Below, in pieces: positions 3,421 to 30,647 of a stretch of DNA of 64,000 nt. Where the stretch lies: NCBI GenBank assembly GCA_028709805.1, contig JAQUTL010000007.1, positions 1 to 64,000 of the forward strand, read 5' to 3'. The notes beneath the pieces are model-generated. The model made no database searches. It was given only the letters and a program-made list of their open reading frames with translations, and was not told the origin of the DNA. Position 1 is the stretch's first letter. Every line of letters begins with the position of its first letter. The stretch comes from Victivallaceae bacterium (GTDB lineage: Bacteria > Verrucomicrobiota > Lentisphaeria > Victivallales > Victivallaceae). The translations under genes and the position numbers were made by a program.

Positions 3421-6400
3421 TCATCCTTTCATCAGCGCAAGGATACCGTTGCTGTACGCCAGCGAATAACCGTCTTTGGTTTCGCCGTAATTGAACGAAC
3501 AGAGCAGCGCGTCATTCTTGAACAGCTCGACTTTCAGGCCGTCCAGCATGTATTCGTCCTCCACCGCCATCAGGTCATAGCTGCCGGAGGTCGCGCCAAG
3601 CTCGACTTGCAGCAGCTTGTCGCCGTCGGCAAAGGTGAACGCGGCGGCGTCCTGAATGAACGCGACACCCTGATAACTCGCGTCGCGCCCGGTCAGATCG
3701 AACTTGAACGTGTTGGCGCCGTAGCCCGGTCCGGCGGTGATCTCGCTGGTCCCGGCGAACTTCAGAAGGTCGAAGTTCTTGACGTTGGCCGAAAATTCGC
3801 CGTAAAAGTCGCGGAACTCCAGCGTCCGGACGCCGGAGACCATGCCGGCGATCATGCCGTCACCGGAAACCGTGCCGACGGTCAGTTTTTCACCGAGACC
3901 GGTGAAAGTGACCGTTGAACCGCCTTGGACCAGCGTGCTGCCGCCCTTGGAGTAATAGGACGGATTCGCGCCGCCGCTGTAGATGTTGCCCATAACCGTG
4001 ACGTTGGCGGCGGTGGTGTCGATGGTGACGGCCGTGCCGCCGTAAACGACCGAAGTTCCGCCGTTGTAGGCGTAGCCGCCGCCGAACAGGTCGCCGGCCA
4101 GCGTGGAGTTGCGGACGGTGATATTGACGGACGCCGCCGTCGCCGTTGAGCCGGCGTTCTGCGCCTGTGCGCCGCCGACTACCCGGACAATGTTTGCGCC
4201 GTCGAGCGTGATATTCACGGCTCCGACGGTCAGCGTCTGGCCGTTGTCGGCAATGCCGCCGCCGACGATCCAGGCCGAGTTGCCCTTTCCGGCGGCGATG
4301 AGTTTCTGATTGTCGGAATGGACGATCCCGCCGACGCTTACGGCGATGTCATGCACCGCGACGGTCTTTGCGTAAGCCCGCGAGCCGCCGTAAACTACGC
4401 CGGAGTAGCCGCCGCCGGTCAACGCCAGATCGATATTTCCGCCGACATTCACGTTATTTCCGCCGCCGTAAACATTGCACGGCGAAGCCGCCGCCAGCAG
4501 TCCGACACTGGCGTTCACATTGCCGGCAACGTCCACCTCCGCCCCCGCGATAATGCTCTTCACCCGGCTGGAATCCACCAGCAGTTCGGCGTTGCCGCCG
4601 TTTACCGAGCCATAGAGAGTTTCATATTTTCCGGGTGCGACGCTGGCGATGATAAAGTCGTCGCCGGCGACTTCGACGGAGGTGTTGCCGGCGTTGTCCA
4701 CCGCCTTTACCGTCCACGAGTAGAAGCCGATTCCGGCAATGGTCAGGGTCAGCGAATTGGTCGGGCTGAAAACACCAGACTTTTCAGTTCGTCCGTCGAG
4801 CGTTTCGCGCGTATAGGAGACCACATAGCCCTTGACGCCGGATTTACCGTCGGTCGAGGCGTTCCAGTTCAATACCACGGAGAGGCCGGATGGCGGAGTG
4901 GGCGGCTCAACCTCCGGATTGCCGACCACGAAATTCGAACTGGCAGACCACGCGGACTTATTGCCTGCGGCGTCCACCGCGCGAACCCTGGCATAGAACG
5001 TCGCATCTGTCAGCTCTGAAAAAGTGATCTCAGTGTTTGAAATGACGGATTCAGATTTTACCACGGTGACAAAATCGGCATCCAAGGCAAGTTCTATTTC
5101 GTATTTGGCAACGCCGCCGCCCAGTGCGTCATCGAGAGCGGAATCCCAGACGAACAGACAGGAGGTGCCGGTCACACGATAATCGAGGTTGGCCGGAGCG
5201 CCGGGCGCTACCGCATCAACGGGGGAGAATGACTGGCTCAGGCTCCAATCGCCGATATTGCCAGCCGTGTCGGTCGCGCGCACCTGAAAATAGTAGGTGC
5301 CGTACTGCAGCGGATAAAGCGTAACGCCGGTAGCGCCCATCAAACCGGAAGTGACGATGGTGGTAAAATTTGCGTCCGAAGCAACGCGGTATTCGTAGAA
5401 CGCCACGCCGGAAACGGAGTCGATTGCGGCGTTCCAGCTCAGGGTTGCCACATAACCGTCTACCGAGGCGCGCCCGCCGGTTGGACGCAACGGCGCGGTG
5501 GTGTCCACCGAGTAGGAGAGTGTCCGGCTCCATGCGCCGACGTTGCCGGTATAGTCTTCGGCGGAGACGCGGAGGAAATAGTTTCCGTCGGCCAGTCCCG
5601 ATAGGGCAATCCGAATATCTTCGGTGGTTGATGCAGTCACGGTTGCGGCAAACGAGCTGTCGGTCGCAATTTCCACCCTGTATTGTTTTACGCCGTTGCC
5701 GCCGAAATTGTCATGCGCGGCATTCCATGAGAGTTCGCCGTTGGCGACGGCCAGTCCGTCCACCTGCTCCGGCGCGACGGTGTCCGGCAACAGGCGCTGT
5801 TTCCATCCGTCCGCGTCCTGCGCCTGAAACTGAATGAAGTAGCCGTCCTGAGCGTTGATCGTAAACGACTTGGCGCCGTTGTGGAGCTCAAGGGCGAACT
5901 CAAAGGAGTTGAAGGTGATATCGGAGGAGACCAGTATCCGCACTTTGTCAAGGCCGGGAATTGAACTCCAGTTCAATGTGGCCGAGGAGGTTTGCGCCGC
6001 TTCATCGGCAATCACCGTAACGCTGTCGGATTTTGTGGTCGCGCCGCTCAGGATTACCAGATTGGTTTCGCCGCCGGCGGTCATCTTTACTTTTCCGGTG
6101 ATGTCGGCGGTTCCGCTGATGCTGATCTGATTTTTACCGCCGCCCAGATCGATCGCGCCGGCGAAAACGGCATCGGCCGAAAGGGTGATGGTGTCATCGC
6201 CGGCGCCGCCGGCTACAGCGTCGGAAAAAACGGCTTGCCCGGTGGCGGTCAGGGTGTTGTTGCCGTCACCGAGGTCAAGCCGTTTACCGAAGGTGGCTCG
6301 CGTAAAAGAGAAAGTATCATCGCCGCCGCCGAAGTCGAGCGCGCCGATTTCTTTATCAACAGTCATGATCACGGTATCGTTCAGCGAGCTGAGGCGCAGT

Positions 6401-8748
6401 TCGGCGCCGACGCCGATAGTCCAGTCGTTGAGCAGAATATTGCGGGCCCGCGAAGCAAGTTCAAGCACACCTTCGGAGACCGTCCACACCCCGTTAAAAC
6501 CGGAAACATCGGAGTTGACGCACATTAGACCGCTTCCGGCTTTGACGATGTTGCCCAGTCCGGCGATGGAATCGTAAGACTTTCCGGCGGCATCTGCATT
6601 ATTGACGGAACCAATGGTCAATACCGCGCCTTCAGCGACGTCGAACGTGGCTTTTGAGTCGGAATCCGCGATATAAAGCAAACCGCCGGACTCGGCGCAA
6701 TTCCCGGTCAGAGCCAGTTCTTTTCCGGAGGACACCGCGTAGTTCAAGGTGGTTTTCCCGCCCATGTAAATTGCGCCGCCGGCGGCGGCGGCGGCGGCGG
6801 TGGCGCGAGAGGTGGCGGTGGCGGAAGAGCAGGCGGTGGCGGTGGCGATGTTGCCGGAAAAAACGGCGTCCGTCAAACTTGCCGCCGCGCCCGCTAAATA
6901 GATCGCTCCGCCCAAGGCGGAGGAGTAGGTGTAGGCGTAGTCGGTGGCGGAGGCGAGGGCGGTGGCGGCGGCGGTGTTGCCGGAAAAGGCAGCGCCGGTC
7001 AAAGTAAGCGTACCGCCAGCCTGATAGATCGCACCGCCGAGGGCGGTGGCGGTGGCGAAGGACTTGGCTGTGTATTGGGTGATGGCGGTGGCGGTGGCGG
7101 AGGCGACGGCAGTGTTGCCGGAAAAGGTGCCGGCAGCCAAAGTCAGCGTGCCGCCCGCCTGATAGATCGCACCGCCAAGGGCGGAGGCGATGGCGATGCC
7201 GGAGGCGCTGTGGTTGTCGATGAATGTGCGGCCGGTGGCGGAGGCGGCGGCTGTGTTGCCGGAAAAGATGCCGGTGGTCAAAGTCAGCGTGCCGCCCGTC
7301 TGACAAATCGCACCGCCAAGGGCGGAAGCGGAGGCGGTGGCATAGCCATCATAGAGGCGGTCGAGGCTACTGGCGTAGGCGCGGGCGAAGGCGAAGGCGG
7401 TGTTGCCGGAAAAGGTGGCGGTGGTCAGGGTCAACATGCCGCCCGACTGATAAATCGCGCCGCCGCCGGCGGTGGCGGCGACGAGGGCGACGCGGGCGTT
7501 GTGATAGGCGGCGTGGCCCAAGGCGGCGGCTGTGTTGCCGGAAAAGGTGGCGTGGATCAAACTCATAGTGTCGGCACCATGATAAATCGCGCCGCCGCCG
7601 GCGGAAGAGCTGGAATAGAGGATGTCATAGGCGGTGCTGTACGCGTCGGCGGCTGATGCAGAGGCGGTGTTGCCGCTCCACTCAGATGACGCCAATGTCA
7701 CTTTCGCATGGGAGCGGAGCCCGCCGCCATAGGCGGAGGCGATGGCGATGCCGGAGGCGCCGCCGATGGAGTTCTTACGGAAAGAGACATCGCTGCCGGT
7801 CAGCGTTGTGCCGGTCAGTTGAAGCGCGGTTGCACTATGCTTGGAAATACCGACGCTGGTCAGCTTCAGTGAGCCGCCGGTAAGAACCGCCGCCGCCGTA
7901 TTGTTGGAAAAATTGCTTTTGGAAAAACTCCAGTCGGTTCTGCTGCCGGAAATCGCATAGCCGGCCGCGCTGATCACCCAGTCGTGCAGATCAACCGTCG
8001 AGTACTCCGCATAAACGCCGCTTCCGGAAAGCGCGATGGTTCCGCCCGCCGTCTGCCTGAAAATTCCGGCGGTGATCGAATACCCGACGGTGGACTGCAC
8101 ATTGTCGGCAATCGTCACCGTGGTTTCGCTGTCGCTGATATAAATGGTGCCTGAACCGTTCAATGTCCCGCCGAGCGTTACACGCGTAGTTGCTCCGGTC
8201 AACGTAATATCTCGTTTCAGCGCTCCGCCTTTTCCGGTGGTGGCCAGATTCGTAAGGGAGTATATGGCTCCGGTGGCGGACAAGGTTCCGCCGTCAAAGC
8301 GCAGCGTGTCGTTTCCGGTACCGAAGTCGATACTGCCGTCGCCGGTAAGAATCGCGGCTATCTCCAGAATATCGTCATTGTCGTCCAGCGAAAGCGTGCT
8401 ATCCCCGCTCTGCCCGAGCAGGGTAACTACGCTCTGCACGTCGCCGGCAATCCGCACCAGGTCGTTGCCGCTGCCGGTACGGGTCGGAGCGTTCAGCGTC
8501 GAATTGCTCAAGGTAAGAGCATCGTCGCCGTTCCCCAGAAAGAACGACAATCCGGCCGCCGTCGCGTTGACGGTGGAATTTGTCACCGTCACCGTGTCGT
8601 TCCCGCTGTTGGTGAACAGCTGGCCGTCACCCGGAGAAAGGTACAGCGTGGCGTTGACAATGTTCAGAATATCGTCATTCTGCGTCATTTCGTACTTATT
8701 GGTCAGCGTAAGACTCCCGGTGATCTCTTTGGTAATGCCCTCACTCAT
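3421..8748 (-). CDS. Giant repeat surface protein: RTX-like GNDT/GNGDD repeats, Pmp-like GGAI/FSGN repeats, FN3 domains, C-terminal strand-loop-strand repeats
   Basis: 1775-aa ORF. About 7 GGAIYQAGGTLTLTTGTFSGNTA units, four FN3-like segments (APEQVDGLAVANGELSWNAAHD.., YFLRVSAEDYTGNVGAWS), GGG-rich VNITLDGA..VVGG repeats. RBS ggaggg 8 nt before ATG. Confidence 0.85.
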   Translation of the reverse strand: MSEGITKEITGSLTLTNKYEMTQNDDILNIVNATLYLSPGDGQLFTNSGNDTVTVTNSTVNATAAGLSFFLGNGDDALTLSNSTLNAPTRTGSGNDLVRIAGDVQSVVTLLGQSGDSTLSLDDNDDILEIAAILTGDGSIDFGTGNDTLRFDGGTLSATGAIYSLTNLATTGKGGALKRDITLTGATTRVTLGGTLNGSGTIYISDSETTVTIADNVQSTVGYSITAGIFRQTAGGTIALSGSGVYAEYSTVDLHDWVISAAGYAISGSRTDWSFSKSNFSNNTAAAVLTGGSLKLTSVGISKHSATALQLTGTTLTGSDVSFRKNSIGGASGIAIASAYGGGLRSHAKVTLASSEWSGNTASASAADAYSTAYDILYSSSSAGGGAIYHGADTMSLIHATFSGNTAAALGHAAYHNARVALVAATAGGGAIYQSGGMLTLTTATFSGNTAFAFARAYASSLDRLYDGYATASASALGGAICQTGGTLTLTTGIFSGNTAAASATGRTFIDNHSASGIAIASALGGAIYQAGGTLTLAAGTFSGNTAVASATATAITQYTAKSFATATALGGAIYQAGGTLTLTGAAFSGNTAAATALASATDYAYTYSSALGGAIYLAGAAASLTDAVFSGNIATATACSSATATSRATAAAAAAGGAIYMGGKTTLNYAVSSGKELALTGNCAESGGLLYIADSDSKATFDVAEGAVLTIGSVNNADAAGKSYDSIAGLGNIVKAGSGLMCVNSDVSGFNGVWTVSEGVLELASRARNILLNDWTIGVGAELRLSSLNDTVIMTVDKEIGALDFGGGDDTFSFTRATFGKRLDLGDGNNTLTATGQAVFSDAVAGGAGDDTITLSADAVFAGAIDLGGGKNQISISGTADITGKVKMTAGGETNLVILSGATTKSDSVTVIADEAAQTSSATLNWSSIPGLDKVRILVSSDITFNSFEFALELHNGAKSFTINAQDGYFIQFQAQDADGWKQRLLPDTVAPEQVDGLAVANGELSWNAAHDNFGGNGVKQYRVEIATDSSFAATVTASTTEDIRIALSGLADGNYFLRVSAEDYTGNVGAWSRTLSYSVDTTAPLRPTGGRASVDGYVATLSWNAAIDSVSGVAFYEYRVASDANFTTIVTSGLMGATGVTLYPLQYGTYYFQVRATDTAGNIGDWSLSQSFSPVDAVAPGAPANLDYRVTGTSCLFVWDSALDDALGGGVAKYEIELALDADFVTVVKSESVISNTEITFSELTDATFYARVRAVDAAGNKSAWSASSNFVVGNPEVEPPTPPSGLSVVLNWNASTDGKSGVKGYVVSYTRETLDGRTEKSGVFSPTNSLTLTIAGIGFYSWTVKAVDNAGNTSVEVAGDDFIIASVAPGKYETLYGSVNGGNAELLVDSSRVKSIIAGAEVDVAGNVNASVGLLAAASPCNVYGGGNNVNVGGNIDLALTGGGYSGVVYGGSRAYAKTVAVHDIAVSVGGIVHSDNQKLIAAGKGNSAWIVGGGIADNGQTLTVGAVNITLDGANIVRVVGGAQAQNAGSTATAASVNITVRNSTLAGDLFGGGYAYNGGTSVVYGGTAVTIDTTAANVTVMGNIYSGGANPSYYSKGGSTLVQGGSTVTFTGLGEKLTVGTVSGDGMIAGMVSGVRTLEFRDFYGEFSANVKNFDLLKFAGTSEITAGPGYGANTFKFDLTGRDASYQGVAFIQDAAAFTFADGDKLLQVELGATSGSYDLMAVEDEYMLDGLKVELFKNDALLCSFNYGETKDGYSLAYSNGILALMKG
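6750..7700 (-). repeat. Tandem ~150-bp coding repeats (GGAIYQ.GGTLTL...FSGNTA) inside the surface protein gene
   Basis: Recurrent gccggaaaa...gtcaaagt.agcgt.ccgcc..ctgatagatcgcaccgcc blocks separated by variable Ala-rich inserts. Confidence 0.85.
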
Positions 8749-14440: not shown

Positions 14441-15305
14441 CTGGGGGAATATAGGGTGGAGATGTGCGATGTGCGATAATAACGTTATATATAAATTTAT
14501 ATATAGAGAGAGCAACCGGGCGGGGCGGTTTTTTAGGGTAATTTGGCACCCCGTGAAAAAAGCAACCGGGTAACCCGGTTTTAATGGGGTGTCCTTAAAG
14601 AAAATGGAGAACGCGCACATAGATATGGCTATCAAAGATAGCGATCTGTTACAGCCGTCCTCCAAATATAGAGTATCACAAGTTGTGGTCTTTGTCAAGG
14701 CCGAAGAAAACGCAAAGGATAAAAATAAAAGGCTCGGCTATACCGTTATCCGGCAAGCCGAGCAGGGCCAGTCACAGCTTGACGCAACACAGTCGCTGGT
14801 CGCTACCCCGGACACCCCTAATGATGTTGCAGGCCACATCCGGCTAACTGATTCTAAAATAGTGCGTGTTGCGGACAATGTCAAGAGCAAAATTGAAAAA
14901 AAGATGAAAAAATATCCGGAAGAGCACCAGTCCCGTCCGGAAAGCCCGCCGCCGGAGCGCCGCCCGCTTGCCGGAAAAGCACCCTTAGCCCCCACTTGAG
15001 CATAAAGTGATTGGCAAAACGCCAAACAGTCGGCGGCGAATGGCCAAGTAATGGTCAAGTAACGCCGCCGGAACGCAACGGCACAGCGGCGGTTTGCAGA
15101 ACGCGAACCGTCAAGCCGGGTATCGTCAATGCGGCGATACCTCCCCCGCCGCCGCCGAAAGCGTTTTCCGGCCCCCGCCCCCGGTAAAATGGTCCAGCAA
15201 GCCCCTTAGCCCACCCTCGGCTCACCCTCATAATTTTACTTGACCATTACTTGACCATTCGACCATTATGTAGTAGGAAAACAACGGAAAAAAAGGGTAA
15301 AAACA
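14440..15305 (+). mobile_element. Decayed copy of the tRNA-proximal end of the integrative element
   Basis: Near-identical inverted match to 19275..20220, including the ORF SSKYRVSQVVVFVK.EENAKDKNKRLGY..IRQAEQG.SQLDATQSLVATPDTPNDVAGHIRLTD. Confidence 0.85.
14589..14999 (+). CDS. Hypothetical protein, paralogue of ORF 19579..20064
   Basis: 136-aa ORF; the last ~113 residues nearly identical to the second copy. Confidence 0.5.
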   Translation: MSLKKMENAHIDMAIKDSDLLQPSSKYRVSQVVVFVKAEENAKDKNKRLGYTVIRQAEQGQSQLDATQSLVATPDTPNDVAGHIRLTDSKIVRVADNVKSKIEKKMKKYPEEHQSRPESPPPERRPLAGKAPLAPT

Positions 15306-15362
15306 GGACAGGACACCGAATGGCATTTTGAAGACAAATCCTTGATTGTCAACAGGCTAAAA

Positions 15363-15437
15363 TGGAGCCGGCTGTCGGAGTCGAACCGACGACCTGATGA
15401 TTACAAGTCAGCTGCTCTACCACTGAGCTAAGCCGGC
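15363..15437 (-). tRNA. tRNA-Thr(TGT)
   Basis: gccggcttagctcagtggtagagcagctgacttgtaatcatcaggtcgtcggttcgactccgacagccggctcca: cloverleaf, TGT anticodon, encoded CCA. Confidence 0.95.
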
Positions 15438-19140: not shown

Positions 19141-19216
19141 GCACTCGTAGCTCAGTTGGTAGAGCAAATGACTCTTAATCATTGGGTCCTCGGTTCGAGC
19201 CCGAGCGGGTGTACCA
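19141..19216 (+). tRNA. tRNA-Lys(CTT)
   Basis: gcactcgtagctcagttggtagagcaaatgactcttaatcattgggtcctcggttcgagcccgagcgggtgtacca: cloverleaf, CTT anticodon; hosts the element insertion. Confidence 0.93.
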
Positions 19217-19219
19217 TTT
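19175..19219 (+). repeat. attL (45-bp direct repeat, 3' part of tRNA-Lys)
   Basis: Identical to 27393..27437. Confidence 0.92.
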
Positions 19220-19228
19220 TAAGACTTT

Positions 19229-19271
19229 GACAGCCAGCGGGTTGGGTTAAAAATCCAATCAACTGGCTGTC
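19229..19271 (+). terminator. Hairpin terminator directly downstream of tRNA-Lys, supplied by the element
   Basis: gacagccag ... ctggctgtc 9-bp inverted repeat followed by ttattttta. Confidence 0.65.
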
Positions 19272-19578
19272 TTATTTTTACCCTTTTTTTCCGTTGTTTT
19301 CCTACTACATAATGGTCGAATGGTCAAGTAATGGTCAAGTAAAATTATGAGGGTGAGCCGAGGGTGGGCTAAGGGGCTTGCTGGACCATTTTACCGGGGG
19401 CGGGGGCCGGAAAACGCTTTCGGCGGCGGCGGGGGAGGTATCGCCGCATTGACGATACCCGGCTTGACGGTTCGCGTTCTGCAAAACGCCGCGGTGCCGT
19501 TGCGTTCCGGCGGCGTTACTTGACCATTACTTGACCATTCGCCGCCGACTGTTTGGCGTTTTGCCAATCACTTTACGC

Positions 19579-20064
19579 TCAAGTGGGGGCTAAGGGTGCT
19601 TTCCCGGCAAGCGGGCGGCGCTCCGGCGGCGGGCTTTCCGGACGGGACTGGTGCTCTTCCGGATATTTTTTCATCTTTTTTTCAATTTCGCTCTTGACAT
19701 TGTCCGCAACACGCACTATTTTAGAATCAGTTAGCCGGATGTGGCCTGCAACATCATTAGGGGTGTCCGGGGTAGCGACCAGCGACTGTGTTGCGTCAAG
19801 CTGTGAGTGTCCCTGCTCGGCTTGCCGGATAACGGCATAGCCGAGCCTTTTATTTTTATCCTTTGCGTTTTCTTCGGGCTTGACAAAGACCACAACTTGT
19901 GATACTCTATATTTGGAGGAAGCACGAAACGGACAACTTATAGGTTCTTTTTGAACCAGACCTGTGTACGTATCCTCCATTTTTTTATCGAAAGTTCCAA
20001 ACCCGTCAACTGGGCGGGTATGAACATGAACTCCACCCACCTTGTCAGCATTGCGGTTTCCCAA
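19579..20064 (-). CDS. Element-encoded hypothetical protein
   Basis: 161-aa ORF, paralogue of 14589..14999. Confidence 0.55.
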   Translation of the reverse strand: MGNRNADKVGGVHVHTRPVDGFGTFDKKMEDTYTGLVQKEPISCPFRASSKYRVSQVVVFVKPEENAKDKNKRLGYAVIRQAEQGHSQLDATQSLVATPDTPNDVAGHIRLTDSKIVRVADNVKSEIEKKMKKYPEEHQSRPESPPPERRPLAGKAPLAPT

Positions 20065-20167
20065 AAACCGGGTTACCCAGTTGTTTTTTTGCGGTTTGCC
20101 AGTTTACCCTCAAAAAACGCTCCACCCAGTTGCTCTATATATATAAATATATATATAACGTTAATAT

Positions 20168-20206
20168 CGCACAACGCACAACGCACAACGCACAACGCAC
20201 AACGCC
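20168..20206. repeat. Heptanucleotide tandem repeat (cgcacaa x5)
   Basis: cgcacaacgcacaacgcacaacgcacaacgcacaacgc; the sibling copy has about two related units (gatgtgc) at 14459. Confidence 0.8.
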
Positions 20207-20273
20207 ACTGCCACCCTATACCCCCCCACACCCTATATCCCGTAAAGGGTATGGAGGGCAACAGGGCACGAGG

Positions 20274-20996
20274 CTATTCGAGCGGTCCGGCTATTTCGCG
20301 GTGGAAGTGCCGGAACACTTCGCCGTTGTTTCCGTCGTCGTCCATATCGTCAAACGTAATGGCGGCGGAGACGACCGGGAAGATTGCGGCGATTTTGTCA
20401 AGGATACTCTTTGCCGCTGGACAGTCTCCGGCCTCAATGCAAATCTTTGCGGCGTTGTACAGCCGCCGAATATCCCCGGCGCGGCGGCTCTGTGCTTCGC
20501 GGTCGGCAATCAGCAACACACGGGCGGTCACTTCCAGACGGTGGCGCAATTTATTGGCGCGTTTCGGCACGGTATAATATTCAGCACAATAGAGACCGTT
20601 AAGCAGGCGGTATATATTGCTGATGTGAAGACGGCGCTGCTCCTCTTCGTCGAGCAGTGCGGCCCGCTCTCCGGCGGTCAGCGTGTCGGGTTCCGTCGGG
20701 TCGTCCGGGGCGGCCGGGTCTTGCACGTTGTAGAAGTGGGCGCCCCGCCGCAACCACTGCAGATAGCGGAGCTGTTCGCCGGAATGCGGCTTGCCGAAAA
20801 GGGGGAATCCCCCGGCGCATGGCGCTATGCGCGTTTTAGGTGGCATTGCGTGCGTTTTGGCGGCGATTGTCGTTTTGCTGATAATCTTTGGCTGGATTTG
20901 CCTATCGTCGCTCTGCGTTGGCGCAAATGACCTTTCTGTCGATTTTGCTTCACCCGTTGGGTTTGTGGCTCGGTTGTCAATTCTCACTTCGTTCAT
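20274..20996 (-). CDS. Element-encoded hypothetical protein
   Basis: 240-aa ORF (possible later start at MPPKTRIAPC); helical, HTH-like RRAGDIRRLYNAAKICIEAGD; no family recognised. Confidence 0.5.
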   Translation of the reverse strand: MNEVRIDNRATNPTGEAKSTERSFAPTQSDDRQIQPKIISKTTIAAKTHAMPPKTRIAPCAGGFPLFGKPHSGEQLRYLQWLRRGAHFYNVQDPAAPDDPTEPDTLTAGERAALLDEEEQRRLHISNIYRLLNGLYCAEYYTVPKRANKLRHRLEVTARVLLIADREAQSRRAGDIRRLYNAAKICIEAGDCPAAKSILDKIAAIFPVVSAAITFDDMDDDGNNGEVFRHFHREIAGPLE

Positions 20997-21549
20997 GGCT
21001 CAAGTCCTCCGGCCGTGGTCAACAAGAAAGCCGCTTCCGGTCGGTGTGTTCAGCACCTTGCGCCGGGTAGATTAAGTCCGGCGTTTCACGGAAACGGCTA
21101 AAAGCCCACGGGCCAATACAATAAGGTTTTCGGTTTAACGCCAGCGCCGGTATCTCCCCCGGTTTGAAAACTTCGGCGGTTGCGGCTGAACACTCGCAAC
21201 AGTTTTACAATACCGCCGCTGTCTGCTAATTGCAATGGGGCGGCGGCGGATTTGCCGTTATTTTATTGTTTTGCGGCAACGCGCTTTACTTCATCAAGGC
21301 AAAAATGAGAAACTATGCTTTGTTATGCGCTTTTACAAAGTATGCTATTATCTCCCGGCTGTCGTGTATTCCGGGCGGCTGAACGCATTGCGCCGCAACG
21401 TGTTGTATCTATATTGCAAAAAGCTGGTGACGTTTTGTCATTTCGCCTTAATAACAACTGGGTGAATATCTAACCTGCCTCCCTGTCTCGCTTCGCTTGA
21501 CAGGGACAGGGAGGATAGATAGATATATTGATACTATTTGTATATGGTG

Positions 21550-21675
21550 GTGGTGAAATTCATTTGTATATAGGAAAAAGAATTTCACCACATTGATAAA
21601 AATTGACATAACTAACTAATTGTAATGCTGTTATGACGCTACGGCGCAACTTGCCTAAAAAAAGAATTTCACCAC
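21550..21675. repeat. Three copies of a 12-bp inverted/direct repeat (gtggtgaaattc / gaatttcaccac)
   Basis: 21550..21561 inverted relative to 21580..21591 and 21664..21675, in an AT-rich noncoding zone. Confidence 0.8.
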
Positions 21676-21740
21676 ATCGACTTGGGGCAATAAAAAGCCG
21701 CCTTTTGCACACTGCATTCGGCGGCGTTTCCGTTCCGGCG

Positions 21741-24071
21741 TTAAGCCGATAACCCCCCGTTGTCCGGTAGTTTGTAAACTACTTGTCGGCTCCTCCCCGT
21801 TGTTTTTTCAATCTTCTTTTCACTTGTAAGTTGTTTTAAAGCCGTCCGCAATCCGCCGGTTTCTATCGGCGGGTCACTTGTGTTCAGCTGGTTTCTAATA
21901 TCCGTTTCGCCCATTCCGGCGCGATTGTCGGCAAGCACCTTGACAATTTCCGCGCCGAGTTCGTCCCGGTGTTCGGCCCTCTGCGCTGTTTCCACTTGGC
22001 TCCAGTCGCTTTCCGTTGCGGCCTTAAACCACCAGCCGCCGTACCATTCGAAGTAGAATGCTAGCCCCTCCGCTGCGCCGTTGACCTTTTCAACAACCAG
22101 CTTGTAGATTTTGTTTTTTCCGGTTCCCCTCGGCGTAATAATCATCCGGGCGCGTGAACTGTTATTCCAGTCCGTTGACCCGGAGTATGAGCCGCCCCGG
22201 TTTGTGTGCGCTAAAAGTATAACCATAACTCCCGCCCTCCACGCAAAGGCCGCTATTCGCTTGTTGAACTCTGATACCTGATTGCGGTCATTTTCTCCGC
22301 CGGGGAACAACCGGGCTAAGTTGTCGAGGAAAACAATATCTGCGCCGTCCCGCCGCAATTCATCCGCCAGCATTTCCCCAAAAGCAGATACATTGTATTC
22401 AAGCATCCGCGTTGCCGGGTTTATTCGAGCCTCGACAAGGACGCTATCGGGGGGAAGTACGATAAATTTCGTCGGGCTGTACGGAATGCTTGCGGGCAGA
22501 GTATCCGGGTTTGCCTCGAAGTCCGATTCTCCCGTCTCTATCACTCTGTCAATCGGCTTTTTTGCGTATTCTTCCGCTTTTTCGACCTGCCGGTAAACCC
22601 GGCGGTGAACGTCGGGTTTAGTTTCTTCCACGGTGATATAGACACACTTGTATCTTTTGCCGTCTGCCCTCAACGATATTTGACGGCCTAAGAAAGGCAG
22701 TCCGTGCGCCACCGCAAGGCAAAACTGCGTTGATATTGACGATTTACCGCCACCGCCGGGGGCAAATAGAGTTTGTAGGGTTCCTCTTTCAAAAGGCCAG
22801 CCGTCATTAACAACCCACTCTCCCGGCGGGGGTTCCGTCTCTCGGAACTCCGTTTCAGTAAAGGTACAAGCCCTGATTATGTTGAGGAGGCGCTGCCGTT
22901 CGGCGTTCTCTTTGTCCTTGAGTTTGTCCCGGCTGTATGCCTCGTTCACGTCAAACATCAGCGCCGACTTGTCCCCGGCCGGGATTGTCGGGCTGCTGTA
23001 AACGCTTCGCGCGACGGCTCCGGCGTTCTCGTTCGGGTCGGAACAATAGCCGCCATCCTTTCCGCTGTCTACGATTGCTTGAAGCGCCGCGTTTGCTTGG
23101 ATTCCTCGGCGCTTGGCTTCGCAAAGCCACCGGTTGACGCATTGGTTTCTCTCGCCCTCCTGCGCTTCCTCCTGCCGGTCAAGATAACGGTTAAATTCCG
23201 TTAGCGCTTCGCCGTGCATCGGGTCTTCTTCCGGTATCAATCCGGGGCCGGTTCCCGCGTTTGCGTTCGTGCTTTTTCCGTCCGCCGGTGCGTCGGACAG
23301 CAAGCCGCCCCATGTAAAAGCGGAGATTTGCGCCGGACAGTCCGGGGCGGAGATAACCGCCGCCATTCGGCGCGGTCTTTCCGGGCTGTCGTCCCCTTTG
23401 CTGTTGAGCGTTCCGGCAAGGCGCATGATTCGCGGCGCGTCCGTAACCTGCGCGTCTATTTTTGCGGCTTGGGTGCTGAACTTAGCCGCAAGCATCCCGG
23501 TTATTGTTCTCACCGCGCCGCCGTCGTCCGCCGGTATGCCGGACGGCAGTTTATACAACAGGTGGAAGCCGTTTCCGCTGTCGTTGAACAGGGGGGCCGG
23601 CAGTCCTCGCTTTTCGAGGAAAGCGGCCGCACAGTCAACAACCGCCCGCGCCGCCGCCCGTTCCTGCTCGGTTGCCGCTGTTCCGGTGTGGCGCTCCGGG
23701 TCAACGTCAATATACAGGTGTGCGCGCCCGGTGGTGGTTGTCTTGTTCTGACAAGTTCCGGTTTCGGCTGTCGTCGGATTGATTCCGACATACCACGCGC
23801 CGCCGCCCGGTTGCCGATTCATCCATTCGCGGCACTTGTCCAAATCCTCCCGTTTGCAGCTTTGCAAAGTATAGGTGGTTGTTAAGCCGCCGCCGATATG
23901 CCGGACTTGGTACTTTCCGCCGTCCGACATTAGGTATTTTAAGTGCCGCTCAATGTCCGTAAAGTTGAATTGCTCACTTGCATTTTTCGTGGCGAGTGCT
24001 ACATTATCAACAGTTTGAGTATTTGCTTCAGCCCCCGGGATGCTGGCCGGGGGCATTTTTTTATTTTCCAT
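21741..24071 (-). CDS. Primase-helicase replication protein (primase-like N-terminus, RepA-like AAA ATPase C-terminus)
   Basis: LYIDVDPERHTG..NDSGNGFHLLYKLP primase-like segment; RGTLQTLFAPGGGGKSSISTQFCLAVAHGLPFLGRQ Walker A; ADIVFLDNLARLFPG Walker B; VILLAHTNRGGSYSGSTDWNNSSRARM. Confidence 0.8.
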   Translation of the reverse strand: MENKKMPPASIPGAEANTQTVDNVALATKNASEQFNFTDIERHLKYLMSDGGKYQVRHIGGGLTTTYTLQSCKREDLDKCREWMNRQPGGGAWYVGINPTTAETGTCQNKTTTTGRAHLYIDVDPERHTGTAATEQERAAARAVVDCAAAFLEKRGLPAPLFNDSGNGFHLLYKLPSGIPADDGGAVRTITGMLAAKFSTQAAKIDAQVTDAPRIMRLAGTLNSKGDDSPERPRRMAAVISAPDCPAQISAFTWGGLLSDAPADGKSTNANAGTGPGLIPEEDPMHGEALTEFNRYLDRQEEAQEGERNQCVNRWLCEAKRRGIQANAALQAIVDSGKDGGYCSDPNENAGAVARSVYSSPTIPAGDKSALMFDVNEAYSRDKLKDKENAERQRLLNIIRACTFTETEFRETEPPPGEWVVNDGWPFERGTLQTLFAPGGGGKSSISTQFCLAVAHGLPFLGRQISLRADGKRYKCVYITVEETKPDVHRRVYRQVEKAEEYAKKPIDRVIETGESDFEANPDTLPASIPYSPTKFIVLPPDSVLVEARINPATRMLEYNVSAFGEMLADELRRDGADIVFLDNLARLFPGGENDRNQVSEFNKRIAAFAWRAGVMVILLAHTNRGGSYSGSTDWNNSSRARMIITPRGTGKNKIYKLVVEKVNGAAEGLAFYFEWYGGWWFKAATESDWSQVETAQRAEHRDELGAEIVKVLADNRAGMGETDIRNQLNTSDPPIETGGLRTALKQLTSEKKIEKTTGRSRQVVYKLPDNGGLSA

Positions 24072-24093
24072 GTTTTGTTGTCTCCGAGTGGGG

Positions 24094-24363
24094 TTATTCG
24101 TTCGCGGCCGGTTTTATCGGGCGGCGTGACGGCTGTAAGGGCTTGTACCACCAGCGGCCGCGCAAAGAGCCGTTCACTGTCTGTACCGGGCCGTGCGGCC
24201 GAAAGCCCCGCCGCTTTAACTCGGCTTCTCTTTCCATCAGTAAGTTTGGGTTGCGGTTTATTGCGACTTCCACCGCAATTCCCCGTGTACACCGCGCGCG
24301 GATTCGTTCCGACGCATTAGGCCACAACAATAACTTCCGGTATTCGGCGTAGGGTCGTTTCAT
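24094..24363 (-). CDS. Element-encoded small hypothetical protein
   Basis: 89-aa ORF overlapping the next gene by 4 bp. Confidence 0.5.
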   Translation of the reverse strand: MKRPYAEYRKLLLWPNASERIRARCTRGIAVEVAINRNPNLLMEREAELKRRGFRPHGPVQTVNGSLRGRWWYKPLQPSRRPIKPAANE

Positions 24364-24644
24364 CGGGTTGCCCTCCCGCAGTTGGCCAGCCGCTCAACTT
24401 CCAGCCGGTCAAACCTCACCCGGCGCGGTGACGTGGCAATTTGCCGGAGCGCTCCGCAGGAAGCATACCGCCGGAGCGTCGGGCGGCTTATTTCAAGTAT
24501 ACGCATTGCTTCCCGCGCCGTGATCCTATCAACTCTTGGGATTGTCTGTCTGCAAGCCGCCTTAATTGCGGCGAGCTGTTCCGGTGTCGTCTCTCTGTCC
24601 GCCGAGGCTACGGAGATAATAGCCGTTACCGTTTCATCTTTCAT
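24360..24644 (-). CDS. HTH (excisionase/MerR-like) DNA-binding protein
   Basis: RITAREAMRILEISRPTLRRYASCGALRQIATSPRRVRFDRLEVERL, typical HTH_17/excisionase. Confidence 0.75.
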   Translation of the reverse strand: MKDETVTAIISVASADRETTPEQLAAIKAACRQTIPRVDRITAREAMRILEISRPTLRRYASCGALRQIATSPRRVRFDRLEVERLANCGRATR

Positions 24645-24821
24645 TTTTCCTGTTCTTTCCGCTATTTAGCGTCGGGGTGCTTTATTGCACTCCCATATAC
24701 AGGCAAAATGTCCGATTTTTGCATACTTTTTGAGCTTAAAAGCGTGCATTTTACTGCATACCCTCAATCGGGTACAAAAAGCGCTTTGTGCTGTCATTTC
24801 GGTACTCTAATTCTTGGCTGT

Positions 24822-25889
24822 TCAGCTCCTGTTTGCGTCGGGTTTCTCGTCAAAATAAATATTGGCGGGTTCCGTGGCTTCCTTTTCGCATTCGGGGTCT
24901 TCCTTTTCGCATTCGGGGTCTTCCTCGGCTGGTCTTTTGTACTCGAGGACTGCGGCCGGCAACACGGCGCCACTTCTGCGGATTTCGCGATTTCCCACAC
25001 TGTTGGTGTTGTTTTTGTCTGCCAGCCGCTTAGCTCTGGCCCTTTCTTTTTCGTTGTGGTATCTTTTCGCCCACCGCTTAAGCCCGGCCATCGAGGTAAC
25101 GTTCCACAATCCACAAGGGCCTCCGTCTCTAATCCATCGGCTTACTGCTCTGGTGCTTGGCTTATTCTCCCCGGCGCGTTCGACCGCACCGGCGATAAGG
25201 CTCTGCTCGAGTGACAGTATAAAGGCGCTTGCTCCGGTTCGATGTGTCCGCGCGGCGGCGGCAAGTTCTTGGGCTAATAGCGTAGCGTTCAGCCGCCATT
25301 CGGCTATTGGCCGCGCTGACCAATTCGCGCCGTTTGCAATCCATGAAAAAGCCAGTACCACCCGGTCCATCAGCCGGAGCGCGTTTTTTACCAGTTCGCA
25401 CTCTCCGGCTTCCGGCTCCGGGGAGGATGCGCCATTTGCTTTTTGCCAATAATCCGGTGTCATAACCGGCTGTTCTGCGGTTGATTCAAAAACACCCACT
25501 TTCATAAGGTTTTTCAATCCGCTTTGCGGGCTTGCGTAGCACTGGACTATCCCGGCGGCGAAAAGCCATAAATGCCAAACACGGATTGTATCTATGTCGC
25601 TTCCTGTACGGTGGCCGGAATAACGCAAACGGGCGGGGGCTATTTTGCTTATCCTGTGCGCCGCGCCGCTGATTGCTTTTATATCTTGCTTCGACAGCCG
25701 CGCGGCCGGAAGCCCCCCCGTTGCAAGCCGGGTTATGACCGGCGGCGTATCGTCGCCTAATAGCATCCGGTAAGCCGCCCACCGGGAAAGATAATTGAAC
25801 TCGGGCTGGGGCGGCGGGTAGTTACACTCTTTTCCGATATTGGCAAGCCCCCGCATATATTCATCACCGTTGAATTTATCCTTACTCAT
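24822..25889 (-). CDS. Element-encoded hypothetical protein
   Basis: 355-aa ORF, start overlaps the integrase stop by 8 bp; 21-bp tandem repeat encodes DPECEKE x2. Confidence 0.6.
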   Translation of the reverse strand: MSKDKFNGDEYMRGLANIGKECNYPPPQPEFNYLSRWAAYRMLLGDDTPPVITRLATGGLPAARLSKQDIKAISGAAHRISKIAPARLRYSGHRTGSDIDTIRVWHLWLFAAGIVQCYASPQSGLKNLMKVGVFESTAEQPVMTPDYWQKANGASSPEPEAGECELVKNALRLMDRVVLAFSWIANGANWSARPIAEWRLNATLLAQELAAAARTHRTGASAFILSLEQSLIAGAVERAGENKPSTRAVSRWIRDGGPCGLWNVTSMAGLKRWAKRYHNEKERARAKRLADKNNTNSVGNREIRRSGAVLPAAVLEYKRPAEEDPECEKEDPECEKEATEPANIYFDEKPDANRS

Positions 25890-27324
25890 GTTCAGACCTC
25901 GCGATATTTAGCAGTTTGCGAACCGCCGCAATGTCAAGAGAGCGGGCCAGTGTTGCCAGCTCTGCGCGTTCCGGCTCGTCCGCCGGAGTGACCGCCGCCG
26001 TTCCGCCGATTTGCGGTAAAGCGCCGATTGCCTTTTGCTTGGCCTCGGTTGAAATGTGCGTATAGTGCCGGGTCATGGCCGGGCTTCCGTGCCCGACGAT
26101 AGCGGCAATTACTTCTTCCGGTACTCCCGCATTGGCGCAAAGAGATACAAAGGTGTGCCGGAAGCTGTGCAAGCTGTAAACATTGGCGGCCAATTTCCGC
26201 CGGGCGGTGGTTTCGTCCTTGGTCGCGGTTGTCTGGACACCGAGCGCACACCGTATAATTTTCATAACGTCTTTTTGCAATCCTGTCGGGTTGTAAAAAT
26301 AGCGTTTTGCAACGTGGGGGAGAATATAGGGGACTTGGTCGGTTTGCCATTCCAGCGCGTCCCGCAACGCCGCTCGAAGCGGCGGAAACAACGGAATGAC
26401 AACTGGGCGGCCGCCGGTTTTGCGCTCGGTCTTCTTGGGGGTGTAGGTGATTGTATTTGCGTCAAAGTCCACCGCGTTCCAGCGCATTAAAGCGCCGTCC
26501 TGCCCCCTTGCTCCGGTAAAGCAGCAGAGATACAGCAACACGCGCATTTCTGCGGCATACAGCGGCTTGTATTCTCGTTGCACGGTGCGGCCGTCGGCAA
26601 CCGTATCGTAGAAAAAACCGTTGTTGAACCCGTCAAATATTGTTTGCACCTGCTCCGCCGAAAAGTCTTTCCTTACGGCGGTTTCATTGGTCTTTTTGCC
26701 TATCCCGTCAAAGGGGTTGCCGTCCAGAGCGGCCGGGGCCTCAAGGTGTTTGAAAATCAGCCGCAGAGCTTGTAAATAGGCGTTGAACGTGCGGCCGGAT
26801 ATTCCCGATTTCCAAAGATAACCGAAGTATTCCGCCGCGGTGTCTCCGTCCACTTCCGCCACGCGCTGAATGTCTGGACGTTCATTTAGAAGCCATTTGA
26901 GGAACAGGTCAAAGATGTTTCGATAAGTTGACAGCGTGCGTTGTCCGCTGTCCGGCCGGTTCGGTTGGTCAAGGTACGCTTCCCATGCGTCCGCCAGTCG
27001 CAGGCCGGAACGCCGTTTCAACTTTTTGGCTTCGGCAACATGTACGGCGATTTCCTCCCGGTTGTCGGCCAGTAATATTTTCCGGTATCCGGCGGCGGCG
27101 CGTTCAGCCTCCGGGCGGGTGGTGCATGGCACACCGTCCGCGTTCCTTAACATGGCGGTTTTTACTTTGCCGCCGATACGGGTTTTCAGATACCATCTTT
27201 TGCCGTCAAGGTAAATCGTCCCCGCGCCCTTTTCTCTGGTCTTTAACTGCGTTTTACTGGCCATCGTTCCCACTCCGTTTCCATTGTGATACATTGTTTT
27301 TCGTTCTGATACCAAATTTATCAC
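25882..27324 (-). CDS. Tyrosine recombinase/integrase
   Basis: TGARGQDGALMRW, SLHSFRHTFVSLCANAGVPEEVIAAIVGHGSPAMTRHYTHIS (R..HxxR..H..Y); adjacent to attR. Confidence 0.93.
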   Translation of the reverse strand: MINLVSERKTMYHNGNGVGTMASKTQLKTREKGAGTIYLDGKRWYLKTRIGGKVKTAMLRNADGVPCTTRPEAERAAAGYRKILLADNREEIAVHVAEAKKLKRRSGLRLADAWEAYLDQPNRPDSGQRTLSTYRNIFDLFLKWLLNERPDIQRVAEVDGDTAAEYFGYLWKSGISGRTFNAYLQALRLIFKHLEAPAALDGNPFDGIGKKTNETAVRKDFSAEQVQTIFDGFNNGFFYDTVADGRTVQREYKPLYAAEMRVLLYLCCFTGARGQDGALMRWNAVDFDANTITYTPKKTERKTGGRPVVIPLFPPLRAALRDALEWQTDQVPYILPHVAKRYFYNPTGLQKDVMKIIRCALGVQTTATKDETTARRKLAANVYSLHSFRHTFVSLCANAGVPEEVIAAIVGHGSPAMTRHYTHISTEAKQKAIGALPQIGGTAAVTPADEPERAELATLARSLDIAAVRKLLNIARSEHE

Positions 27325-27392
27325 ATAATGGCCTAATAGTCAAGTAATGGTCAAGTAAAAGGCAACGATATGAGCTTAATTGCTGATGACTA

Positions 27393-27437
27393 TTAATCAT
27401 TGGGTCCTCGGTTCGAGCCCGAGCGGGTGTACCATTT
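27393..27437 (+). repeat. attR (45-bp direct repeat of tRNA-Lys 3' end)
   Basis: Identical to 19175..19219. Confidence 0.92.
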
Positions 27438-27481: not shown

Positions 27482-27689
27482 TTCTCTCCGGGTCGAGGCC
27501 GCTCCATCCCGAAACGCCGGGCGCCGCATCTTGCGGTCAACATCATAATTCATAAGCGCCGGCGATACTTGATTTTTTTTATTGCAATGATAATTTATTG
27601 ACAAGTTTCAGAAGGCGGCGTCTTAACCGGTTTTGGCCTCGCCTTTCAGTTGCACTGTTGCAGTTTATCTCACAAAAAGGGGGCACGGG

Positions 27690-30647
27690 ATGAAATGGAA
27701 TTATCGACGGCTGCTGGACAATGTAACCGATCCTCAGAAGCTGGTGTTGAACAACTATTCAACCTTTATCACCGGAACGAAACTGCCCGACGCAGACATA
27801 CTGGCGGAGGCGGCTTCCCCAAAAATCGTCAGGGAAGACGACGCGGTTTCAACTGCAAAGAAAATATCCTCGGCTATCGACGTCGGGCTGTCCGGCTGCT
27901 CGGTAAATCGCGTTTTAAGCGGAAACAGCTCCGTTCTCACCGTGGAGACCGATGCCGGCGGCGAAGCGAAGAAACTCGCGGCGATAAGCTACAGCGTCTC
28001 CTCCAAACGGGACTTTTCCGCAATGAGATCAACCATTAACGGAATGGTGGCCGGCTTTTCCACCGTTGCCCTGTCCGGAGTGGAGTGCAAACAGCGTGTG
28101 ATCGGCGGCAGCGGAAAATTCACCGCCTCCGGCCGCTACGCCGGAATATGGGACAAAAGCGCAGTCATTGACGCCGAAGCCGAACAGAGCGTGATGGGAA
28201 TCGACGTCACTCCGGGCGGCTCGCTCAGCGCAGTCAACGGAACCTTTGACGACAATGTCCGCGGATTCAAGAATGTTCGACTCTCCGGCGGAAGCACCAC
28301 CGGCTCCATAATCGGAGGGCGGGAAAACACCGCTGCGGAGATGACGGTCAAGAAAGAGCTGGCCGGAGTGGAAATCGTCTTCGGCAAGAAACTTTCCGCC
28401 GCCGGAACGTGTTCGCTGGACAACGGCACGATGGCCGAGACAATTTCCGGATATAAGACACTTCTGCTGTCCGGCGGAAGCCTCATCGACCGCGCTATGG
28501 CCATGACGACCAAGCTCTCCTTCAGCGTGACCCGCCGGCCGGCCGGCACCTCGGCCACGGACAAACAGTTCGCGGCAACGACCGTCAACGGCGAAATCAT
28601 CGCCGACTCGGCCGGAAAAGCCGAGCTGAACGCCGCCACGGCCGATTCACTCATGGGTTACACCGATGTTTCCGTCAACGCCGGAAATCTGAGCACGGCG
28701 ATCGGCGGCAAATACCGGATCGGCGTCAACATCGCGCTGACACAGGAGAACACCGCGGAGAACGAAGCGACTTTTATTGAACTTATGACGGCACAGGATC
28801 TCTACGCGATATCCGTAACACTGATAATCCGCGCAATAGAACAGAAAATCCAGAAGCTCGAACTGGACTATGATTCACTCGCGGCCGGATCGTTCACCGG
28901 CCGGAAGTTTTCCGACCCGGCAATGATAGTCAACTATAAGAATCTTGAGCTATCAACCGTTTCCGGCAAGTTCAGCGCCGACGGCGGCGCAAAGTCGTGT
29001 TCGCTGTCCGCCACGGCGTTTCAGGAAAACAACTATACGGTCTCTTTTTCGGCAAGCATATTTACAAGAAGCCTCGGAACGGCAAAACTGTCCGCCGTCA
29101 CCATGGACCGGCTGTCCGGATACGACCGGGTTTCCGTGCGGGATCAAAGCAATGTGATCCGGCTGTTCGGCGGAGATGTCAATTTCACGCTGAATTACGG
29201 ATACTTTGCTGTAAACGCGGCCGATTCCACCTGGGACGCCTCCGGAAATATTTCCATGACCTACCGCGCCCGGGCGACATGCGAACTTTCATCCTCGAAG
29301 GCCGGCTTCTCCGCCGGAATCCGCAATCTGACGATCGGACCGAACGCGACCTCGGAATTTTCGCTGGGCGGAAATATTGGATTTACCGGCGTCGTCGCCG
29401 TCGATAAAGCAAAAACCTCCGTCACCGAACTGGCGATGACCATCAAGTCCACCGGAAAGCTGACCGGCTCCGCCGGAGAAGGCGATCTGGCGGCCGGTTA
29501 TCTTAACGTGAAAATCGCCGCAACCACCGTTTATGCGATCTTCGGCGGCAATATGTCGTTAAGCGGGACTTCGGAATTTGACACCAGCGAATTTGAACCC
29601 GTGAGTTTGAGTTCGCTCACCGTTCCGGATATTCTGCGACTCGTTATAGGCGGCCTCACCCCGAAAAGCGTCAAATGGGATATCCACTCCGCCGGAGCGG
29701 CGGAAATAACCGGTGCGTCAAAAGTGTTAAATATTCTCGGCTACAAAAGTATAACCGTCAAAAATTCATCGATTGACTCCGCTATCGGCGGAACGATCAC
29801 CGGCGCCGGCGGGTTGCCGGTTTCCTCGCTTGCGCGCCGCCGCCTTAGCCTCACCGCCGTCGCCACCGACGGATGGTTCAAGGCGGAAAATTCGACGATC
29901 GGCGTGGTTCTCGGATACAAAAAGGTGACGCTGAACGGCGGTGTGGCCGCCAACGTCCATCTCTCACGCGTAAGCCCGTCCGACGCTCCAGCCGCGCTGA
30001 AGGGCTCGTCCCTGACGATCAACGGCACGAAACTGGACAATTCCTCACTCACCGGATTCAATCAGATGACTTTCTCCGACCTGAAAGGTGAAATCGTTAA
30101 ACTCAGCTGCAGCTCCCTCAACGACACGGTAAAGGTGAAGAACGGTACGGTAAAAATCACCGATATGGTGGATTTCGGCGACGGCGTCGATACGCTTTCG
30201 CTCGCCAAAGGCGGAGTTTTTGCCGCCTCGGTGACAAAGATCAGCGGACTGGACCGGGTTGAAGGCGGCGGCACGCTGCTGATCCGTCAGGGTGCGCTCC
30301 CGGAAAACATCAAGATCGCGTCATCGGTAAAAGTGGTGGAGCTTCCAGACGACGCATTCGCAACGAAGGACGATTCGGCAGCGACCGCCGTAAAATATTC
30401 CGGCGGCACCGCCGAAGGCCGGCTCAGCCTGTTCGACACCGCCGACTGGGTTGAATTCTCGCTGCAGAACGCCGGACGGCTCGACCTCGGCGAACTTGAG
30501 GACGTCGCCTGCGCGCTGTATTCCGTTGGAGAAAACGGCGAACTGACGCTCCGTTCCGGCACGGATCTGTCGGCCGGAGATTACAAGCTTGAGTTCACGC
30601 TTTCCGGCGACGCTCTCAGCGGAAAATACGGCTTCAGCATCGCCTGA
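27690..30647 (+). CDS. Large repetitive surface-like protein with ~9 GY(K/D)xVxL..GG motifs
   Basis: ORF 27633..30647; likely start MKWNYRR at 27690 (upstream aaaggggg). Repeats such as ISGYKTLLLSGGS, LMGYTDVSVNAGNLSTAIGG, LSGYDRVSV...LFGG, ILGYKSITVKNSSIDSAIGG. Confidence 0.75.
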   Translation: MKWNYRRLLDNVTDPQKLVLNNYSTFITGTKLPDADILAEAASPKIVREDDAVSTAKKISSAIDVGLSGCSVNRVLSGNSSVLTVETDAGGEAKKLAAISYSVSSKRDFSAMRSTINGMVAGFSTVALSGVECKQRVIGGSGKFTASGRYAGIWDKSAVIDAEAEQSVMGIDVTPGGSLSAVNGTFDDNVRGFKNVRLSGGSTTGSIIGGRENTAAEMTVKKELAGVEIVFGKKLSAAGTCSLDNGTMAETISGYKTLLLSGGSLIDRAMAMTTKLSFSVTRRPAGTSATDKQFAATTVNGEIIADSAGKAELNAATADSLMGYTDVSVNAGNLSTAIGGKYRIGVNIALTQENTAENEATFIELMTAQDLYAISVTLIIRAIEQKIQKLELDYDSLAAGSFTGRKFSDPAMIVNYKNLELSTVSGKFSADGGAKSCSLSATAFQENNYTVSFSASIFTRSLGTAKLSAVTMDRLSGYDRVSVRDQSNVIRLFGGDVNFTLNYGYFAVNAADSTWDASGNISMTYRARATCELSSSKAGFSAGIRNLTIGPNATSEFSLGGNIGFTGVVAVDKAKTSVTELAMTIKSTGKLTGSAGEGDLAAGYLNVKIAATTVYAIFGGNMSLSGTSEFDTSEFEPVSLSSLTVPDILRLVIGGLTPKSVKWDIHSAGAAEITGASKVLNILGYKSITVKNSSIDSAIGGTITGAGGLPVSSLARRRLSLTAVATDGWFKAENSTIGVVLGYKKVTLNGGVAANVHLSRVSPSDAPAALKGSSLTINGTKLDNSSLTGFNQMTFSDLKGEIVKLSCSSLNDTVKVKNGTVKITDMVDFGDGVDTLSLAKGGVFAASVTKISGLDRVEGGGTLLIRQGALPENIKIASSVKVVELPDDAFATKDDSAATAVKYSGGTAEGRLSLFDTADWVEFSLQNAGRLDLGELEDVACALYSVGENGELTLRSGTDLSAGDYKLEFTLSGDALSGKYGFSIA

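Follow-up and report, generated by a model that had tools for sequence, protein, structure and literature searches.

An 8.2-kb element in tRNA-Lys of a gut Victivallales bacterium as a candidate PICMI-like minimalist phage satellite

Introduction

Among described mobile elements, the PICMIs of Vibrio, or phage-inducible chromosomal minimalist islands, are the closest in organization to the locus studied here. In the parts of the PICMI report considered in this work (PMC10803314), their genes are ordered int, iolg, alpA, up1, prim and up2, with iolg overlapping int by 1, 4 or 13 nt and the int-overlapping gene absent from some subfamilies. As portrayed there, PICMIs have neither packaging nor capsid genes, and a virulent helper phage packages them as concatemers; integration at fis is called their hallmark, their HTH gene is modelled with Pfam PF12728, the same HTH_17 family that is found in our element, and the authors themselves report no complete PICMI outside Vibrio (PMC10803314).

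In this work, we analyse an integrated element of 8.2 kb in a gut bacterium of the order Victivallales, within a 64,000-nucleotide stretch of its genome (the window). With slightly better than even confidence, we read it as a minimalist phage satellite that resembles PICMIs, represents a new lineage and is integrated in tRNA-Lys. In full-text literature searches we came across no account of phage satellites from Victivallales or Lentisphaeria, and a minimal satellite architecture in such a distant gut lineage would offer a defined gene set for asking how few genes suffice.

Results

An integrative element bounded by exact att repeats

The integration target is an intact tRNA-Lys(CTT) gene (19141–19216, plus strand, ARAGORN). 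A 45-bp attL core inside it (19175–19219, plus strand) is identical to the attR core at 27393–27437 (plus strand), just as a preliminary description of this DNA had claimed. The repeat extends to 52 nt with one mismatch (19168–19219 versus 27386–27437) and corresponds to the 3′ part of the tRNA from the anticodon onward; because the two copies differ solely at the first base of the anticodon (C19174 versus A27392), strand exchange probably takes place 3′ of that base. The chance that such a repeat arose randomly in an 11-kb region is negligible. With an integrase, direct att repeats and the probable arm-type sites described below, the locus is a tyrosine-recombinase integrative element, and every supported gene between the att copies lies on the minus strand, in agreement with the preliminary description.

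No unoccupied integration site was found within the species; the one other genome in the genus loses synteny at the M48/LemA locus, where a tRNA-Leu comes next. Elsewhere in the window, two very large repetitive open reading frames (ORFs) of 1775 and 1004 aa (3421–8748 and 27633–30647) lie near elements and resemble, by eye, surface or autotransporter-type proteins.

Integrase, excisionase-like protein and replication gene

Pfam and PHROG matches substantiate the three functions that had been proposed for the element: a tyrosine integrase, an HTH/excisionase-like protein and a primase-helicase. The integrase (25882–27264, minus strand) matches Phage_integrase (3e-13) and phrog_1 (2e-53). It probably starts at the ATG at 27264 (MASKTQLK..., 460 aa) rather than at the GTG at 27324 (480 aa), as its relatives begin likewise and the GTG adjoins an arm-type site. 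The 94-aa HTH protein (24360–24644, minus strand), assigned an AlpA/Xis role, matches HTH_17 (9e-6; bit score 26.3, slightly below the Pfam cut-off of 27) and the ‘excisionase’ family phrog_66 (3e-6), and its homologues occur close to related integrases.

The HTH gene heads a block that continues with an 89-aa protein in the position of PICMI up1 (24094–24363, minus strand, overlapping the HTH gene by 4 nt) and ends with the 776-aa primase/helicase (21741–24071, minus strand). The latter combines a primase domain, which from a reading of its motifs is of the archaeo-eukaryotic type, with a RecA-fold helicase part akin to plasmid RepA and a weak C-terminal winged helix, and matches AAA_25 (6e-24) and the primase/helicase family phrog_239 (6e-16). 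No full-length relative was found in viral contigs, 100 related genomes, GTDB contigs, phages or plasmids. Elsewhere the protein is matched only in parts, mostly over the primase domain, which is about 40% identical to primase-like proteins of relatives, and the sole plasmid match spans 16% of its length. These results support the earlier view that the integrative element is minimal and carries a replication gene of its own.

Downstream of the primase/helicase gene, a palindrome/repeat cluster (21550–21675, plus strand) could be a replication origin. It comprises the palindrome GTGGTGAAATTC/GAATTTCACCAC at 21550–21561 and 21580–21591 and a third copy of the arm at 21664–21675, with a folding z of −3.3.

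Orphan genes and a probable non-coding end

The remaining ORFs are a 355-aa orphan in the position of PICMI iolg (24822–25889, minus strand), which overlaps int by 8 nt, a 240-aa orphan in the position of up2 (20274–20996, minus strand) and a 161-aa ORF at the tRNA end (19579–20064, minus strand). The int-overlapping gene is missing beside most close relatives of the integrase. Four ORFs had been listed as unrecognised, and it holds that those of 355, 240, 161 and 89 aa cannot be assigned convincingly to any family in Pfam, PHROG or NCBIfam; the PHROG search gave the 240-aa ORF a tail-fibre match with an E value of 0.017, which we judged to be chance. Neither the 355-aa nor the 240-aa protein had relatives in sequence searches, PADLOC found no defence family among the orphans, and the predicted structures are unusable (pLDDT of 38 and 44 for the 355- and 240-aa proteins, respectively).

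The count of four proteins itself probably does not stand, as the 161-aa ORF is unlikely to encode a protein. Compared with a relic at a tRNA-Thr gene (below), it has accumulated 7 synonymous and 21 nonsynonymous changes, a pattern without purifying selection; a further copy on contig C25 is interrupted by stops, and the third-position GC of the 161-aa ORF is 0.48, compared to 0.58–0.66 in the other ORFs of the element.

Pfam, PHROG and NCBIfam searches recognised no virion structural or terminase gene in the element, and terS, a capsid-remodelling gene, cos and pac were likewise not found. Relaxase, T4SS and capsid families are absent from the ORFs, so the absence of recognisable transfer or virion genes, also claimed previously, persists under these searches. 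We abandoned the idea of an integrated conjugative element as no relaxase was found.

Paired arm-type sites mark several tRNA genes

The 13-mer AATGGTCAAGTAA is present at both ends of the element in pairs with 11-bp spacing: two copies, 11 bp apart and 102 bp from the tRNA 3′ end (19319–19342, plus strand), two further, inverted copies (19516–19541, minus strand) and two on the integrase side, upstream of int (27335–27358, plus strand). The paired motif looks like integrase arm-type sites, an interpretation based on its spacing and orientation to tRNAs, which follow the expected layout.

We scanned 100 related genomes for the 22-bp double site, allowing 2 mismatches and using the reversed pattern as a control. 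The double site occurs in 6 of the 100 genomes, compared to none for the control, and the tRNA-side pair lies 91–105 bp 3′ of ten tRNA genes in the same orientation (four tRNA-Thr, three tRNA-Arg, and tRNA-Lys, tRNA-His and tRNA-Met), a count that takes in the window element and its sister L093. At six loci (L201–L205 and L207), an arm array stands 91–105 bp beyond a tRNA 3′ end but has no integrase of this family in its vicinity, which suggests scars or unrecognised islands; the double sites at L200 and L206 have no tRNA close by. Recognisable at several tRNAs, such scars provide a simple sequence test for finding elements of this kind.

Decayed copies in the same genome

Next to a tRNA-Thr(TGT) gene (15363–15437) lies a one-ended relic of a sister element (14463–15362, minus strand); this relic reproduces the tRNA end of the complete element in truncated and inverted form. 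It is roughly 93% identical to 19227–19986 over 761 bp, and 98% identical over 654 bp to the end with the 161-aa ORF, and has four arm sites spaced as in the complete element. Its far side adjoins an IS transposase-like fragment (by eye), and there is no second att within about 5 kb on the left. A third copy of the same end, on contig C25 (L200, G000:C25, 9207–9827; 76–91% identity), aligns as far as the last codons of the 240-aa gene and has no tRNA detected close by; it is followed by a BrnT-like toxin and BrnA-like antitoxin pair (by eye). Together with the integrase-free arm arrays beside tRNAs, these relics point to repeated insertion and frequent decay of such elements. The arm-type sites, the tRNA-Thr relic and the palindrome/repeat cluster are new beyond the preliminary description.

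Relatives share the integrase and differ in replication and cargo genes

The close relatives belong to Lentisphaeria/Victivallales, mostly from rumen and gut. Four of them, of 3.6–8.9 kb, lie between exact att repeats in tRNAs, which answers the question of whether att-flanked relatives exist in other genomes. Their integrases are of the same family (43–61% identity) and each has an HTH gene, but they differ in replication and cargo genes: L093 (tRNA-Thr, att of 45 bp, 8.8 kb) encodes DUF6291, an ERCC4 nuclease and TerS; L108 (tRNA-Thr, 53 bp, 4.9 kb) a RepA_N/replication-initiator-like gene; L107 (tRNA-Met(CAT), 46 bp, 3.6 kb) a reverse transcriptase, with the HTH gene on the opposite strand; and L109 (tRNA-Thr, 45 bp, 8.9 kb) a primase with AAA_25, its HTH gene seen by eye only.

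The closest relative is L093, with 61% integrase identity and arm sites of the same sequence. Its terminase small subunit matches phrog_309 (4e-30) and is similar to 403 phage records, and it also has a weak tape-measure match; phage-like by its DUF6291 and ERCC4 genes, L093 could be a prophage remnant. At a tRNA-Asn, L091 has the arrangement int, 8-nt-overlapping orphan, HTH_17 and primase, and its far att was not found. DUF5906 and DUF3987-like genes occur near relatives of the integrase at L058 and L095. Separately, sister integrases at L060, L063, L095 and L107 lie near reverse transcriptase genes, with weakly DnaN-clamp-like, DUF932 or PD-(D/E)XK genes also nearby at L060 and L063; these four neighbourhoods suggest a distinct and possibly larger kind of element.

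Discussion

Judging from its genes, the element is probably able to excise and replicate itself, and it most likely travels in helper-phage particles, since it has no known means of its own to leave the cell. Infection by, or induction of, a helper phage would lead the HTH protein to switch the integrase to excision, perhaps aided by the 355-aa int-overlapping protein, as iolg does in PICMI; the primase-helicase would replicate the circle from the palindrome/repeat cluster, and the DNA would be packaged in unmodified helper capsids and reintegrate at tRNA-Lys in a new cell. Possible helpers are two prophage regions in the same genome, one with a terminase large subunit and scaffold (L213, G000:C24) and one with a terminase large subunit and portal (L215, G000:C36); two more terminase genes occur in this genome.

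An integrase, excisionase and primase also fit an integrated plasmid or a decayed prophage, and the preliminary description had left the choice between a satellite and an integrative mobilizable element (IME). The minimal element stands, and the choice narrows towards a satellite because L093, which has the same arm sites, encodes TerS, and because the gene order is PICMI-like. As a small plasmid-like IME, the element would move by conjugation or transformation with a relaxase of the host or a helper, and its primase-helicase would be a plasmid replication protein. The similarity of the helicase part to plasmid RepA, the RepA_N/replication-initiator-like gene that L108 has instead and three ORFs with no assigned function all agree with this; we nevertheless consider it unlikely, as Pfam, PHROG and NCBIfam place relaxase, MobC or T4SS families in no ORF, the replication protein has a single plasmid match, the short one noted above, and a conjugative element would have no need of the terminase small subunit of its nearest relative.

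Less probable still is a reduced or defective prophage, in which the int-xis-replication end of a once temperate phage persists after loss of the virion genes. Integrase and primase are indeed phage-like, and L093 pairs TerS with a tape-measure-like protein, but the 8.2-kb element keeps both att sites intact and shows no recognised trace of virion genes, exact att repeats bound each of the four small relatives, and no viral contig has a close integrase (best 28% identity). Finally, an inert island that rarely excises and spreads solely by general DNA uptake is the least probable of these alternatives: the one-ended relics and integrase-free arm arrays show that many copies die, but repeated insertion and a relic roughly 93% identical at another tRNA point to fairly recent mobility.

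Extending the satellite reading to the relatives, we tentatively propose, at a little under an even chance, that Victivallales have their own radiation of helper-dependent minimal satellites. Their common feature would be an integrase/arm-site module whose first arm site lies about 105 bp away from the tRNA 3′ end, combined with freely swapped replication modules (AEP-RepA helicase, D5/DUF5906, primase with AAA_25, RepA_N) and cargo (TerS, reverse transcriptase). If true, a PICMI-like organization arose twice or extends far beyond Vibrio.

Comparison with known systems

Bacteroides NBU elements are IMEs with int, a xis-like gene and a primase; the element has all three, but no relaxase was recognised in it. 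With PICIs it shares int, an excisionase or regulator and a replication gene, with TerS in the sister L093, whereas terS and capsid-interference genes are absent from the element itself when compared through the Pfam, PHROG and NCBIfam libraries. It resembles P4-like satellites in tRNA integration and in having, close to a repeat cluster, a primase-helicase that may carry a winged helix, but no P4 morphogenesis or anti-terminator family was found in it, and its helicase part is RepA-like, whereas that of P4 is SF3.

The likeness to PICMIs, as far as the parts of their report considered here describe them, is greater. Both are small att-bounded elements (roughly 6.7 kb in PICMI) with co-located integrase, AlpA/HTH_17 and primase genes, no packaging or capsid genes and a non-coding stretch with small ORFs. 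The order int, overlapping orphan, HTH_17, small gene, primase and orphan is that of PICMI115 (PMC10803314), although the likeness of the 355-aa ORF to the gene between int and alpA is positional. Unlike the single PICMI per genome described there, elements of the present type have left relics of several copies in one genome. Our element sits in tRNA-Lys and not at fis, its host belongs to Victivallales and not to Vibrionaceae, and its primase/helicase is AEP-like with AAA_25, the only family that Pfam gives, and not DUF3987/DUF5906. We thus reject membership of the PICMI family on integration site, host and primase type; by analogy, the element plausibly works like a PICMI.
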